DNA from: a virus | DNA length: 24,392 bases | IMG/VR virus record: IMGVR_UViG_3300031963_000898 | Location: 1-24,392 of that record | Direction: 5' to 3' (one strand) | Part shown: one piece after another, positions 1,285-10,479 of the stretch | Layout of the letters: the number at the start of each line of letters is the position of its first letter | Position numbering within the stretch: the first letter of the stretch is position 1 | Notes under the pieces: model-generated | What the model was told of the DNA's origin: nothing | Seen by the model: only the letters and a program-made list of their open reading frames with translations | The model's database searches: none | Made by a program: the position numbers and the translations under genes

Positions 1285-2599
1285 AAGTATCGTTTTAAAA
1301 TTGCGTTCACAAAGTAACGAAAACAATCTAAGAAATCGGCACGCTCACTTAAAATTCTTCTATTGCTCTTGATGATGCTGCCGTTGCTATCGCACTGCAC
1401 TTGCTTTGCATCGAACACGAAGCCCTTGCACTTTACCGAGTTGGCTCTGATGTCGAGCTTCCTTAGCGCAGCATTGCAATCAATGCGGCTGTTGTAGTGC
1501 GTCGGGTTGGCTGGTATTATTATCTGCGAATCGCTCAGGTGTAATCGGCGTTTGATTTGCGTGTATGCGCTTGAGTTATCGCGCTGCTGCACTGTGCCGC
1601 CCTTACCCATCGCATCGCCAGTGATCCGCAGCAAGCCCATTGGTATGCTCATTCGCTCGATGTAATCGCAGAACGCATCAACGCTGCCCTTATCAATCTT
1701 TATCTCATCGACTACCACGCAGCCTCGCGGCAGTTGTTGGATCACCAGTGCGCATAGTGGGTTGATGTTGAAATCGACACTTATGAATATCGGTATATTG
1801 CGATTGAGCGCGATGCTATCATCAATGTGCTTCTCATCCTGCCACTCGTAAAGGAATGGGTTAGCAACATCGTCTAAGATATCCCAGTCGCCTTCAACGA
1901 AACGCTGATACTGCACTGGCGGTAGTTCCTTCAATGACTCAAGGTACTCGGCAGGGATGTGAGGGTTGTCGGTTATCTTTGATGGTATGTAGCTCCAACG
2001 CTCAGGCAAGCTGCCATCCCGGTATCGGTCGTATATCACAGTCTTCACCCAATTGTTAGCAGGGTTGCAAGTCGCCAAGCAAACAATCGGCGGCTTGCCA
2101 TGCGCCTTGTTCCAACTTCCGATGCGCTCCTGCACCTTGTAGAAAGTTGGCTCTTGCAGCTCGTTGACTTCATCAAGCCCTGCGCCGTTAACTTCCAATC
2201 CTCTAAAGCGGTTGAGGTCTTTATCCTCATCGAAACTCTCTGCCATAAAGATAAGCTCGCTGCCGTTGTTGAATGTTACAACATTAGTATCTCTGTTCCA
2301 ACTTCTGATATGTGCATTTAGCCCATCGCCAAGCAGTCCAGTGAATGATGGAAACGTGGTGCGCTTTAAGTCGGGCAGCGACTTGCGGATGATTACCCAA
2401 CGACTGCCGCCATAGGTTAGCGCGAGGTGTGTGATAGTTAATAATAGCCAGTAGGTTTTTCCACCTCGTTAATCTTTCCCCCTTACATTTCTGCAAGGGG
2501 AGCCCATCGTATAGCACCCCCGAAAACAATTACTCGCTTGTTTCCGCTGGTTGCCATATCGAAGGCTGATGTTTGTGTCTTGGTTAATGTGAAGCTCAT
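1281..2599 (-). CDS. terL: Terminase large subunit, interrupted in Walker A by a 41-nt insertion
   Basis: DNA-packaging motor (ATPase plus nuclease). The ATG at 2599 overlaps the stop of the DUF5681 gene (ATGA). The first 31 codons end ...VIVFGGAIR; the frame then enters an insertion and hits TAA eight codons later. From 2465 another frame continues GGKTYWLLLT... to the stop at 1281. Removing exactly 41 nt joins the two into a 425-residue protein of normal TerL length, with Walker A GGAIRGGKT (27-35), a Walker B-like LDEVNE near 129, an ATPase-coupling motif LATCNP near 161-166, and RNase H-like nuclease aspartates near 262 (SVDFN), 315 (TGDAMG) and 408/411 (ADFLDCFRYF). Without removal, only a 38-residue peptide and a fragment lacking the P-loop could be made. 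No ATG, GTG or TTG start lies in the downstream frame before 2246. Confidence 0.9.
2466..2506 (-). other. 41-nt intervening element with hairpin in terL (bypass-like or palindromic insertion)
   Basis: In the transcript the element follows codon CGA (2509-2507) and itself ends in CGA (2468-2466), so the flanks share ACGA. It contains a stem CCCCTTGCA / TGTAAGGGG (9 bp, one G-U) closed by a GAAA tetraloop of GNRA type. AUG-UAA sits at the loop and 3' arm in the incoming frame. A purine run GGGGGAAAG follows 5 nt before the second CGA, and a TAA stands directly before it in the outgoing frame. Length 41 is not a multiple of three. The layout resembles the bypass segment of phage T4 gene 60 (matching take-off and landing codons, hairpin, internal stop, purine-rich tract before landing). 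A small palindromic repeat insertion with a 4-bp target duplication would look the same. Confidence 0.8.
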
Positions 2600-3834: not shown

Positions 3835-4149
3835 TATTACCGCAAGAAATTCCTCTTCACTTCTAACGATGTGATATTCGTGCCCAAGCGAGAGGCATAG
3901 CTGCTGGAACTTAACTTGCTCAGGCGATTGCCTTCCGCTTTCGGTCTTCCATTCAATCCAAACTGTCTTCCCTTCGGGTTTCAAATAACACATATCGGCT
4001 ACGCCTGCGACAACACCCATAGCTTTATTAAGTGCTCCTTTAATTCCGTTTTGGCTGTTGTTATTTATAGCAAACACGCGCCCACGTAGGTCTGGGCGGC
4101 TGTTCCATAGGTTCTGAAATGCCTTAGATTGGAGGGTTGCTTCGCTCAT
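3814..4149 (-). CDS. VRR-NUC domain nuclease
   Basis: 111 residues starting MSEATLQSKAFQNLWNSRPD. The ATG at 4149 is chosen because everything upstream in frame is encoded by the TTGGACCAC repeats (it would read GPSGPSGP). VRR-NUC is a PD-(D/E)XK nuclease fold. Visible are NKAMGVVAGVADM with the catalytic Asp at about 52, then WIEWK (Glu66-x-Lys68), then QSPEQVKFQ at about 74-82, the standard motif order. Phage VRR-NUC proteins are thought to act as structure-selective or Holliday-junction nucleases during replication or packaging. It lies between the putative origin and the packaging genes. Confidence 0.88.
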   Translation of the reverse strand: MSEATLQSKAFQNLWNSRPDLRGRVFAINNNSQNGIKGALNKAMGVVAGVADMCYLKPEGKTVWIEWKTESGRQSPEQVKFQQLCLSLGHEYHIVRSEEEFLAVILHNQIK

Positions 4150-4151
4150 AA

Positions 4152-4178
4152 TTGGACCACTTGGACCACTTGGACCAC
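4152..4178. repeat. Three tandem 9-bp TTGGACCAC repeats
   Basis: Perfect tandem copies at 4152-4160, 4161-4169 and 4170-4178, immediately upstream of the VRR-NUC start. The same TGGACCACTT core recurs in both orientations at 4276-4285, 4322-4331, 4342-4351 and 4352-4361 (one mismatch). Confidence 0.9.
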
Positions 4179-4211
4179 TTGTTTTAGCACTTCCCAAAGT
4201 AGCATATGTGA

Positions 4212-4246
4212 TGTGTGTGTGTGTGTGTGTGTGTGCATATATATAT
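4212..4246. repeat. (TG)12 dinucleotide tract followed by (AT)n
   Basis: Twelve consecutive TG dinucleotides (4212-4235), one C, then five AT dinucleotides. Such tracts are rare in compact phage genomes. They are prone to Z-DNA formation and melting, consistent with an unwinding element beside the repeats. Confidence 0.9.
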
Positions 4247-4361
4247 TTATAAGGGTTTAGTAAAAAGTAAGTGGTAAGTGGTCCAAAATCGCTGCGGTCT
4301 TACTGACACAATGGTTTCCAATGGACCACTTCATAAATAGTAAGTGGTCCATAGTGGTCCA

Positions 4362-6485
4362 CTACATAGTAAGTTTGGAGACAAAGTACATCCTTACTTT
4401 GGAATTACCTCTCATTTTACGCTCTTGTTGGTATCCTAAAGATGTAAGTATTGAACCAATACGCTGAGTGTTGAGGTAATTAAACTTAGTTTCCACCATC
4501 AAGTATTGCTGAATATCGGTAAGCGACATCCATTCTCCAAAGGCTCTATCTCCAATGTCAAGCTTCTTATGGATTAAGTCCTCCTCCGGTGTTGAGTGCT
4601 TAAATGAATCAGTTGATTGATTTAAGAGCGCTATCTCCTCTTTAAGGACTGTATATGATTCGCCAGCTAAATACATCGCGTACAGCTCGCGCCATAGCTC
4701 TGCCTTATCGCATTGGTTATAAAGCTCATGGTCAATGTCCAATATATGGATTGGTATTTGCCTGCGGTTGCCAGTTGGATCGGATAGTATCTGTGTTTCG
4801 TTTGATGTTCCGCAAAATACTGCGAGCCTGCGAAGGTCAACAGATACCCTGCCGTATGGCTCGCGCACGTTGATGAACTCTTTAGAGGTCAACTCCTTAA
4901 GCCGCTTCTCCTCCTTTTTGGATTTGCCGCCGTATTCATCATCAAGTATTAGTAGCTTCTTTGTCATTAGTATTTCATCGTCTTTACCAGCATCCATCTT
5001 GCTCTCGGCAAATAGGAAGCGCAGCTCTTTGGGTAATAGATACCTAAACCAATGCGTCTTGCCAGTGCCCTGCTTCTCTCCTGAGAAGATAAGCACCAAT
5101 GGTGAATGGAAACCATAAGCGGAAGCGACAACTGAAACAAGCCACTTAATGATGAACTTATCGGCATTCGGTGTATCTGTTTTAATACTACCGAGCAGCT
5201 TGGATAAGTTTGGACGGTTGTCAACTGGCTTAACATCTGACTCAAAGAACTCATGCAGCGGGTTGTATGTTTCGATTCTGTTGGAGAATAGTATGGCGGT
5301 GATAAGGTCTTTAGTTGATTCTTTGAATAACGCTTTAGAGTCCAGAAATATGGAGTTAATATCACTATCGTCAATCGGCTTGTTGTTGAGTTCCACGTTG
5401 CGGGTTATAACATTTTTGCGCAGCGGGAAGGTCTTTACGAATGCGGTGATGTCGGCACTAACATTCTCCGATTTATACTTAATATCCTTGCTTACTATCT
5501 GATTAACTATCTCGGTGCTCACTTCATTTGAGATGCCGCCATGCTTTTCCAGTGTTTCAATAATTGCATCTGTGGAAAGCCCAGCGGCTCGCTGCGAAGT
5601 TGCTGAACGCATTATCTCTTTTGTCTGATTTGAATAGGCATCAATTCCGTTTTGCTTAGCGTGGAAGTAGATGGTTGCAATGGTTGACTTCTTGCCTTTG
5701 CTTTCGCTGTGGTTCTTAAGGCAGGCGCTGTACTGCCTATCGCAATCGTCTGAGTTGTACTTAGAGGAGTGAGAGGATAAAGTATGGAAGTGGTCGCGCC
5801 CCTGCTCTCCGAACTCGGAGACAAGCGCATAAGCAATTGAAATCCAATCGGAATAATCTTCGCATAGGTTGAGCTGCTTGCGGTCCATTTGCTCAATCAT
5901 TGCATCGAAGTCGTTTTTTACTACTACTACCTTATGAGTTTTTAGCTCCTTTTGCTTGGCGAGATACTTCTTGAATTGTTGCGCTTTGGTGTTAACGAAG
6001 ATAAACGGATCATAAGAAACAAAGCGGGCGCGTGCAAGGTTCTTGCATGACTGGTCAACGATTAGTTGATAGTTGTTGTAAAGGTAGGAAGCGATGCCGT
6101 TGAAGGCATCGAGGTGTCGCGTTCCATCGATGCGGGATATAACACACAATCCGCTGCCGCTAATGGATATAAAGCAGGCATAAGTATAAGGATCATTGCT
6201 CAGGAGCTTTCGCGTTTCTTCGATGTTTTCAACGTGGTCAATGTCGATTGCGATGAATCCTGAATGATTGCGCAGGGCATCGTCTTTACGAGCTGCAAAT
6301 GAGCCGCTAACTGTAACAAGTGGCGCGGTTTTTTTCTTTAGGTCGCGTATCTCTTTAGTTGGTGCTGCTCTGATGTCGAGCACTACATCTTGCCATTTTC
6401 CGGTGCGTATGCCTTCGAGAAAGGAGTTAATTTCGATGTCCACATCTTGGTCATCTCTGATATTCTTGTAGTAGGAAATCTGCAT
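4362..6485 (-). CDS. Primase-helicase, BT4734/VapE type
   Basis: 707 residues. The N-terminal half resembles BT4734-like/AEP primase domains: GFIAIDIDHV (about 77-86, metal-binding Asp81 and Asp83) and a following ISGSGLCV segment. A middle region with DWISIAYALVSEFGEQGRDHF matches the primase-C-terminal-type helical domain. The C-terminal half is a VirE/VapE-like P-loop ATPase: SGEKQGTGKTHWFRYLLP (468-485), LLILDDEYGG (511-520), and sensor region RRLAVFCGTSNE near 561. A final winged-helix-like tail (about 640-707) could bind DNA. It should prime and unwind DNA at the adjacent repeat-rich region. Its start overlaps the helicase gene by 35 nt. Confidence 0.9.
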   Translation of the reverse strand: MQISYYKNIRDDQDVDIEINSFLEGIRTGKWQDVVLDIRAAPTKEIRDLKKKTAPLVTVSGSFAARKDDALRNHSGFIAIDIDHVENIEETRKLLSNDPYTYACFISISGSGLCVISRIDGTRHLDAFNGIASYLYNNYQLIVDQSCKNLARARFVSYDPFIFVNTKAQQFKKYLAKQKELKTHKVVVVKNDFDAMIEQMDRKQLNLCEDYSDWISIAYALVSEFGEQGRDHFHTLSSHSSKYNSDDCDRQYSACLKNHSESKGKKSTIATIYFHAKQNGIDAYSNQTKEIMRSATSQRAAGLSTDAIIETLEKHGGISNEVSTEIVNQIVSKDIKYKSENVSADITAFVKTFPLRKNVITRNVELNNKPIDDSDINSIFLDSKALFKESTKDLITAILFSNRIETYNPLHEFFESDVKPVDNRPNLSKLLGSIKTDTPNADKFIIKWLVSVVASAYGFHSPLVLIFSGEKQGTGKTHWFRYLLPKELRFLFAESKMDAGKDDEILMTKKLLILDDEYGGKSKKEEKRLKELTSKEFINVREPYGRVSVDLRRLAVFCGTSNETQILSDPTGNRRQIPIHILDIDHELYNQCDKAELWRELYAMYLAGESYTVLKEEIALLNQSTDSFKHSTPEEDLIHKKLDIGDRAFGEWMSLTDIQQYLMVETKFNYLNTQRIGSILTSLGYQQERKMRGNSKVRMYFVSKLTM

Positions 6486-9526: not shown

Positions 9527-9738
9527 GCAATTAGTTGCCTTTTGTCAACTGGAATAAATCCGCTGCCGTTGCCGTGTACTACCTTAATGAAGTCAACCTC
9601 AACCTTTGCTGAGTTGATAATCACCTGAGCAATGTCTGCGATTGCTTTAGCTTTTTCGAGCTCCATATCGCCTTCTTTTACCATCTCGATAATCTCGAAT
9701 AAATGGTCTCTTAAATCTTCTATTTTATTGCGTGCCAT
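9523..9738 (-). CDS. Small helical phage protein (MARNKIEDLRDHLFE family)
   Basis: 71 residues, helical: MARNKIEDLRDHLFEIIEMV, then LEKAKAIADIAQVIINSAKVEVDF and a GNGSGFIP tail. This is a widely recurring small protein of Bacteroidota phages found in replication/recombination modules. It possibly forms a helical dimer. Function unknown. It overlaps the HNH gene by 19 nt. Confidence 0.8.
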   Translation of the reverse strand: MARNKIEDLRDHLFEIIEMVKEGDMELEKAKAIADIAQVIINSAKVEVDFIKVVHGNGSGFIPVDKRQLIA

Positions 9739-10316
9739 AATTTGTTAAGTGCTTTAATTGTTTCTTGTATTTCAATTGGATATTTAGTTATTCTATTGCG
9801 CTCCATATTTTCGCTCATACTTATTTTTTCAAGGTTTCCTATCTCAAAATTGCTTCTATTTTTATCTCGAAAAACAATCACTTCGTTGCGATTTATTTTG
9901 CCATATTCCTGCTCGTAAATATGCCTATGAAGTAAAGCCCACTTTCGAGGCTCTGCAATCTTTATGTATGTATAACCTTCCTCATCAATTCGAGTCGAAC
10001 CGACTGGGCGATGGTTCGGAGGGATTGTACCTTTTTTAAATTGAGTTACTTGCCCTCCTATTTGCAGCCCCTTCATTCCTTTATTCCAAGGGATATTGCC
10101 TTTTGGAAAGAATGTCAATTGGTTACCAGTCTTAAGCCTACCGCTTGATGCCGTTGCAAGGTATGCAGGTGTCTTAAACAACCTTAGCAGATTCGCTTTG
10201 CAGTAACATTGCTTAACTGTTTTATTTAATAGTTCTGCAACCTCTTTAGTGGAGCGGTGCGGATAGTGTTCTACCAGAACCGACACTTCTTGCTCAGTCC
10301 AAATCTCGCGGCTCAT
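9720..10316 (-). CDS. HNH homing-type endonuclease with N-terminal HTH
   Basis: 198 residues from the ATG at 10316 (MSREIWTEQEVSVLVEHYPH). The N-terminus is a Myb/SANT-like helix-turn-helix with two helices (about 5-45). The middle has the repeated phrases FFPKGNIPWNKGMKG and FKKGTIPPNHRPVGS typical of phage HNH proteins. The HNH core is LLHRHIYEQ...GNLEKIS (His130, His132, Asn161). It is a free-standing endonuclease, probably mobile: it is AT-rich and overlaps both neighbours (23 nt and 19 nt) without disrupting them. No intron is apparent around it. Confidence 0.85.
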   Translation of the reverse strand: MSREIWTEQEVSVLVEHYPHRSTKEVAELLNKTVKQCYCKANLLRLFKTPAYLATASSGRLKTGNQLTFFPKGNIPWNKGMKGLQIGGQVTQFKKGTIPPNHRPVGSTRIDEEGYTYIKIAEPRKWALLHRHIYEQEYGKINRNEVIVFRDKNRSNFEIGNLEKISMSENMERNRITKYPIEIQETIKALNKLWHAIK

Positions 10317-10479
10317 AATGTCTTGGATATGGCAGCCCTTGCTCACCGCTTTCGTATGCTTCTTTTAGTGCGCACTTCATCTTCTCTTTAAGCGGCTTAT
10401 GCTCTTTGCTTGGCATAATCGTGTTGAGGTATGCAGACAGTTCATTGAACTCCTCTATGATGTTGGATAGGTAGGTCAT
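10294..10479 (-). CDS. Unrecognised 61-residue protein
   Basis: Starts MTYLSNIIEEFNELSAYLNT; ATGA overlap with the upstream coiled-coil gene. A helical N-terminal half, a lysine-rich middle (KEHKPLKEKMK) and a tail ending YPRHYEPRDLD. No motif recognised. Its compact coupling to both neighbours supports it being a gene. Confidence 0.65.
   Translation of the reverse strand: MTYLSNIIEEFNELSAYLNTIMPSKEHKPLKEKMKCALKEAYESGEQGLPYPRHYEPRDLD

Follow-up and report, generated by a model that had tools for sequence, protein, structure and literature searches.

Mitochondrial byp elements carry a hairpin between their take-off and landing sites. In Magnusiomyces capitatus, these byps are short inserts in essential genes and show presence/absence variation (PMC5009743, PMC8211752); they number 81 per genome and have been described as largely independent of the mRNA context (PMC5009743). 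In phage T4 gene 60, ribosomes slide over 50 nt, driven by matched codons together with a 5' stem-loop and a take-off stem-loop (PMC5009743, PMC11194080). A 2016 review treats this gene as the characterised long bypass of prokaryotes and phages, with others only suggested (PMC5009743). For the terminase gene of Streptomyces phage Hau3, bypassing was proposed from sequence, with a UUA codon and a gap much shorter than that described here (PMC5009743). A mobile T4 cassette composed of a homing endonuclease and a bypass sequence was reported by Bonocora et al. (2011), as summarised in later accounts (PMC5009743, PMC8300805, PMC4592705).

The window analysed here is a 24,392-nt stretch of viral DNA (IMG/VR record IMGVR_UViG_3300031963_000898), in which the terminase gene terL is encoded on the minus strand. 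The first coding segment of 31 codons (2599–2507, MSFTLTKTQTSAFDMATSGNKRVIVFGGAIR) starts with ATG at 2599–2597 and ends in ...GGU GCU AUA CGA, with the putative take-off codon CGA at 2509–2507. The following 41 nt (2506–2466) read UGGGCU-CCCCUUGCA-GAAA-UGUAAGGGG-GAAAGAUUAA-CGA, and comprise a hairpin of 9 bp with a GAAA loop (2500–2479), a purine-rich spacer (GAAAGATTAA, 2478–2469), and the putative landing codon CGA (2468–2466). The terL frame then restarts with GGU GGA AAA ACC, and the second coding segment (2465–1281, 394 codons, Terminase_6N) starts with GGKTYW. Omission of the gap generates a TerL of 425 aa (31 + 394) with the Walker A motif GGAIR/GGKT at the joint; the coordinates and the joined frame agree with the original prediction that removal of the 41 nt restores GGAIRGGKT and a 425-codon gene. 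The joined TerL matched Terminase_6N from profile position 2, the same as a natural gapless relative, while the match of the second segment alone began only at profile position 9. Folding of a 71-nt region with the gap hairpin gave −22.7 kcal/mol (z = −2.91 in comparison with shuffles). An identical sequence was present at locus L087.

We consider programmed translational bypassing the best explanation, with a probability of about 0.84: the 41 nt would represent a non-coding gap that is bypassed by the ribosomes translating terL. Two general hallmarks of bypassing were found, namely a non-coding gap that unites two segments of a single conserved protein when it is left out, and RNA structures at the take-off site and in the gap, as indicated by covariation and recoding tests. 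The comparison of homologous sequences showed same-site conservation, covariation, codon restriction, presence/absence variation, and purifying selection; we infer that translation rather than RNA excision joins the segments, and likewise which tRNA is involved and in what sequence the steps occur.

The architecture appears analogous to that of T4 gene 60, with a 5' stem-loop, a gap, and matched codons. The two differ in the gene (topoisomerase versus terL), the codons (GGA versus CGA/CGN), and the gap length (50 versus 39–41 nt). The terL element further differs from T4 gene 60 in its GNRA loop and in the many natural terL variants, some gapped and others gapless, and the sequences are unrelated. 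T4 gene 60 has a stop directly after the take-off codon, whereas the window has UGG there. The missing immediate stop counts against bypassing, as does the position of the hairpin 6 nt past the take-off codon, where a ribosome about to take off would already unwind part of it. With regard to a nascent-peptide signal of the gene 60 kind, the 31-aa segment is conserved, but the carrier L046 and its gapless relative L045 encode the same peptide. We found no sequence homology, GGA codons, or immediate stop that would assign the terL gap to the T4 gene 60 element itself. Byps and the terL gap share short hairpin inserts in essential genes, variable presence, and a hairpin between take-off and landing. 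Unlike byps, the terL gap is confined to a single site in a single gene of each phage, belongs to a bacterial system, and is accompanied by a conserved upstream RNA structure in the coding sequence; the many copies in many genes per genome that characterise byps were not seen. Hau3 likewise involves a phage terminase, but the terL gap has CGA codons, a 39–41-nt hairpin-bearing gap, and covarying structures. As far as the summarised accounts of the T4 cassette describe it, both bypass sequences vary in presence among related phages, and that cassette carries a homing endonuclease, while terL in the window has no adjoining one and an HNH gene elsewhere does not track the gap.

A search of IMG/VR for terL relatives yielded 80 loci, the majority without an insert and some with an insert at exactly the same codon. 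Pattern scans for further carriers followed, and revealed an insert at that codon in 48 IMG/VR stretches from 43 metagenomes (counted by contig name). All collected loci together formed 59 rows, representing 46 distinct carriers and 26 distinct gaps. The alignment of related terminases, proposed with the original prediction as a check, showed that the insert is absent from close relatives of the carriers and present in others at the same codon. Occupation of the same site in 48 IMG/VR stretches, together with the stem covariation described below, excludes chance; by these alignments, the 41-nt insert is real and reflects neither random decay nor an assembly error.

The gaps are 39, 40, or 41 nt long, covering all three frame classes at one codon, which excludes frameshifting as a general mechanism, as had been argued from the stops of the window alone. 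An incoming-frame stop was present in every gap, as predicted: in the window, the incoming frame ends with AUG-UAA at gap codon 8, and all ten 39-nt gaps, which are in frame, stop at codon 1 or 2. The predicted outgoing-frame stop was confirmed in the window, where UAA lies immediately 5' of the landing CGA, but did not extend to the TTATCGA/TTATCGT gaps (L010, L011, L014, and L017) or to the 39–40-nt gaps. The open outgoing frame in these four loci would permit ordinary −1/+1 frameshifting or stop-codon readthrough across the gap, which is nevertheless the least probable of the alternatives: in the window, the incoming stop precedes the last outgoing stop, one site holds gaps in all three frames, and the product would contain ∼13 extra residues inside the Walker A motif.

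The gap hairpin was strongly conserved. A 9-bp stem capped by a GNRA loop (GAAA or GCAA) was retained throughout the 14 distinct 24-nt cores, and the L101 gap contains an 11-bp version with a GUAA loop. Overall, 98.4% of the stem cells were paired, and the covariation score was 0.531 as compared with 0.215 for shuffled alignments (0/500), with slid pairings scoring 0.096 or less. The predicted 9-bp stem with its GAAA loop thus agrees with the fold of the window and covaries among the carriers. The spacer before the landing codon, described earlier as purine-rich and Shine-Dalgarno-like, was only partly conserved, and we give it little weight. An identical 22-nt hairpin was observed in two unrelated phage contigs (L082:2877–2898 and L090:780–801), followed by T-runs and resembling an intrinsic terminator. 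A 22-nt match by chance is unlikely, and these terminator-like copies may point to where the gap hairpin came from. The hairpin as a common host terminator was rejected, as the exact 22-mer was absent from 395 Bacteroidota genomes.

We examined the selection on terL in the carriers. In the first segment, pN/pS was 0.22, and over the first 60 codons of the second segment it was 0.094, indicating that both segments are under purifying selection. The synonymous divergence in carriers was suppressed in the first segment (0.183) relative to the second (0.423), in comparison with nearly equal values in non-carriers (0.505 and 0.475, respectively). The low value fits an RNA-level constraint, recent shared recombination, or both. 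A single terL locus was found in each of 20 large carrier records, G020 excepted; in G009, terL is merely split across the contig ends. The 52-kb G020 (the contig of L124; loci L134 and L135) contains two terL alleles separated by 35.7 kb; one has both a 39-nt gap and the stem-loop, the other has neither, and the surrounding stretches are mostly ∼93% identical. G020 is probably an assembly that continued beyond a single genome length into a sister strain; in any case, both terL alleles occur in one sample.

These data bear on the rival explanation raised with the original prediction, in which a palindromic insertion inactivated terL in defective phages. The insert does interrupt the terL frame, and the same 22-nt hairpin is terminator-like in two unrelated phage contigs. 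However, the carriers number in the dozens and come from 43 metagenomes, no second intact copy was found within a genome, the second segment is open wherever it is complete, pN/pS is well below 1 on both sides, and the changes in the insert stem are compensatory, so that inactivation appears very improbable. The originally favoured interpretation as a phage byp-like element gained strong comparative support from the shared site, the three lengths, the matched codons, the covarying stems, and the low pN/pS.

Beyond that interpretation, we identified a 5' stem-loop ending at the take-off codon, together with the presence/absence pattern among relatives. Folding of whole carriers revealed this second structure, in which codons −19 to −1 of the first segment (2562–2507 in the window) form a long hairpin. 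Its 3' strand ends in GCY-AUA-CGA, placing the take-off codon at the hairpin base. The proportion of paired cells was 94.9% in carriers and 54.1% in non-carriers. In the representative sets, the covariation exceeded all 500 shuffles in carriers and did not in non-carriers, and it was seen for the gap stem and the 5' stem-loop together. In the clearest covarying pair, the first position of codon −12 (Asn/Asp/Tyr) is matched to the third position of codon −7 (Val). When the last 63 nt were compared with synonymous recodings, the carriers showed a mean z of −2.89 (20/24 below −2), as opposed to +0.46 in non-carriers (0/60 below −2).

In ∼9/9 independent contrasts on a second-segment tree, the stem-loop is found together with the gap (sign test, p ∼0.004). 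Linkage may account for part of this association, as the two are usually inherited together. The carrier L046 suggests more than linkage: its 31-aa peptide is identical to that of the gapless L045, and the codons in which it differs form a different stable hairpin (−23.4 versus −19.1 kcal/mol), with a recoding z for L046 of only −1.49. We also noted a possible extension of the helix, in which GCC (2566–2564) may pair with the first gap nucleotides (2501–2506). The Ala codon −20 is GCC in 44/45 carriers and mostly GCA in non-carriers. This GCC could pair with a gap-start GGY in 15/16 gaps of 40–41 nt and in 2/10 of 39 nt, which suggests two structural subclasses.

The take-off site was GCY-ATA-CGA in all 46 distinct carriers. 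Non-carriers varied at these positions, with ATA as the Ile codon in 32/66, and CGA in 26/66 and AGA or AGG in 7/66 as the Arg codon. The landing codon in carriers was CGA (21), CGT (14), or CGC (11), and none of the 46 had CGG or AGR. A scan in which the landing codon was left free detected no true carrier with any other codon; its 18 extra distinct sequences were false, comprising 16 contiguous terL genes with an out-of-frame ATACGA and 2 unrelated stretches. Since CGG is also missing from non-carriers, its absence at the landing site says little alone. In bacteria, the tRNA-Arg with the anticodon ICG reads CGA, CGU, and CGC. The landing set corresponds to what this tRNA should read, and a single tRNA could read both the take-off and the landing codon in all carriers (CGA to CGA/CGT/CGC).

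Precise excision and ligation of the 39–41 nt at the RNA level, by a self-acting or host-assisted mini-intron, would equally explain the same-site conservation, the three frame classes, and the conserved RNA structure, and CGA/CGN forms a short direct repeat at the gap boundaries. However, a single Arg codon would suffice for excision, yet take-off and landing are both restricted to CGN, and the early in-frame stops in the 39-nt gaps have no role in splicing. Furthermore, 41 nt is far too small for a group I or II intron, and the Rfam scan of the window matched neither these nor any other RNA family. We saw no conserved helix joining the boundaries (bulge-helix-bulge type), and pairing between the take-off and landing sites was possible only for the L010-type gap. 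We thus regard excision as unlikely, while ranking it first among the alternatives to bypassing.

Termination-reinitiation or an internal start could instead yield a truncated yet functional TerL encoded by the second segment. In nine of the ten 39-nt gaps (e.g., L104 and L108), the 3' arm of the hairpin holds an in-frame GTG, a possible start for a peptide MGAKIRGGKT, and an ATG overlaps the take-off codon in the TGG-type 41-nt gaps. However, the L109-type 39-nt gap lacks a start codon, and most 40–41-nt gaps, including that of the window, have outgoing-frame stops after any possible start. No ATG, GTG, or TTG was found in the outgoing frame of the window gap. Such a product would also be missing the beginning of Walker A, even though the first segment is conserved up to GGAIR. 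This route seems highly doubtful, on a par with inactivation.

Mapping of the gap onto the terL tree required 11 changes, at least 9 of them on well-supported branches, and close pairs differed mainly upstream of the joint. The window contains an HNH-type endonuclease-like ORF (9720–10346, minus strand). Homing by this gene was rejected: its relatives occur in carriers and non-carriers alike, are missing from many carriers, and are distributed independently of the gap. In the window, terL has no endonuclease gene next to it. The search for the hairpin inside the reading frames of other genes, suggested with the original prediction, gave no further example, as a degenerate pattern of the element matched only terL across IMG/VR. 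Similarly, the strong matches of model R1 were only at terL, one per carrier record. The element had no match in 84,980 bacterial and archaeal genomes or in the 395 Bacteroidota genomes.

No DNA match to the region was found in 50,697 phage records, and the terL relatives of cultured phages were below 30% identity among the best 20 listed. The only genome relative of TerL was a gapless prophage terL of Fibrisoma montanum (29% identity). From this relative and a TAnnTTTG-like promoter sequence in the window, we propose that the host is probably a member of the Bacteroidota. Separately, a cluster of TGGACCACT / AGTGGTCCA repeats in both orientations lies beside a (GT)n tract at 4140–4370. It adjoins the 3' end of a 707-aa minus-strand ORF (4362–6485), and is perhaps a regulatory or replication site.

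In the proposed bypassing mechanism, the ribosome would translate 31 codons, and the upper part of the 5' stem-loop would refold behind it as CGA enters the P site. The ribosome would pause at CGA, where the weak I:A pair with tRNA-Arg(ICG) and the structured mRNA might help codon and anticodon to separate. The lower stem-loop would then pair with AUA-CGA, hiding the take-off codon and pulling the mRNA. The gap hairpin would compact the path and shorten the distance to the landing site. The peptidyl-tRNA-Arg could then re-pair at CGA/CGU/CGC before GGN-GGN-AAR, so that TerL synthesis continues and the Walker A motif is intact. Together, the 5' stem-loop and the gap would constitute a module that recombines among phage terL alleles.

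A wider interpretation stands, in our estimate, at even odds. A recombining RNA-encoded module, consisting of the 5' stem-loop, the CGA take-off codon, the GNRA gap hairpin, and an inosine-read CGA/CGU/CGC landing codon, may have spread at the terL Walker A codon in uncultured phages that probably infect Bacteroidota. It would form a second, independently evolved family of natural phage bypasses, without a dedicated nascent peptide, perhaps throttling TerL synthesis. Annotation pipelines will call a gap-bearing terL broken or split. If bypassing holds, comparing the 26 natural gap variants with each other and with gapless sister alleles, across all three frames and the degenerate landing codons, would allow the rules that govern take-off and landing to be tested, and the element would show how an essential gene can keep an insert within its most conserved motif.
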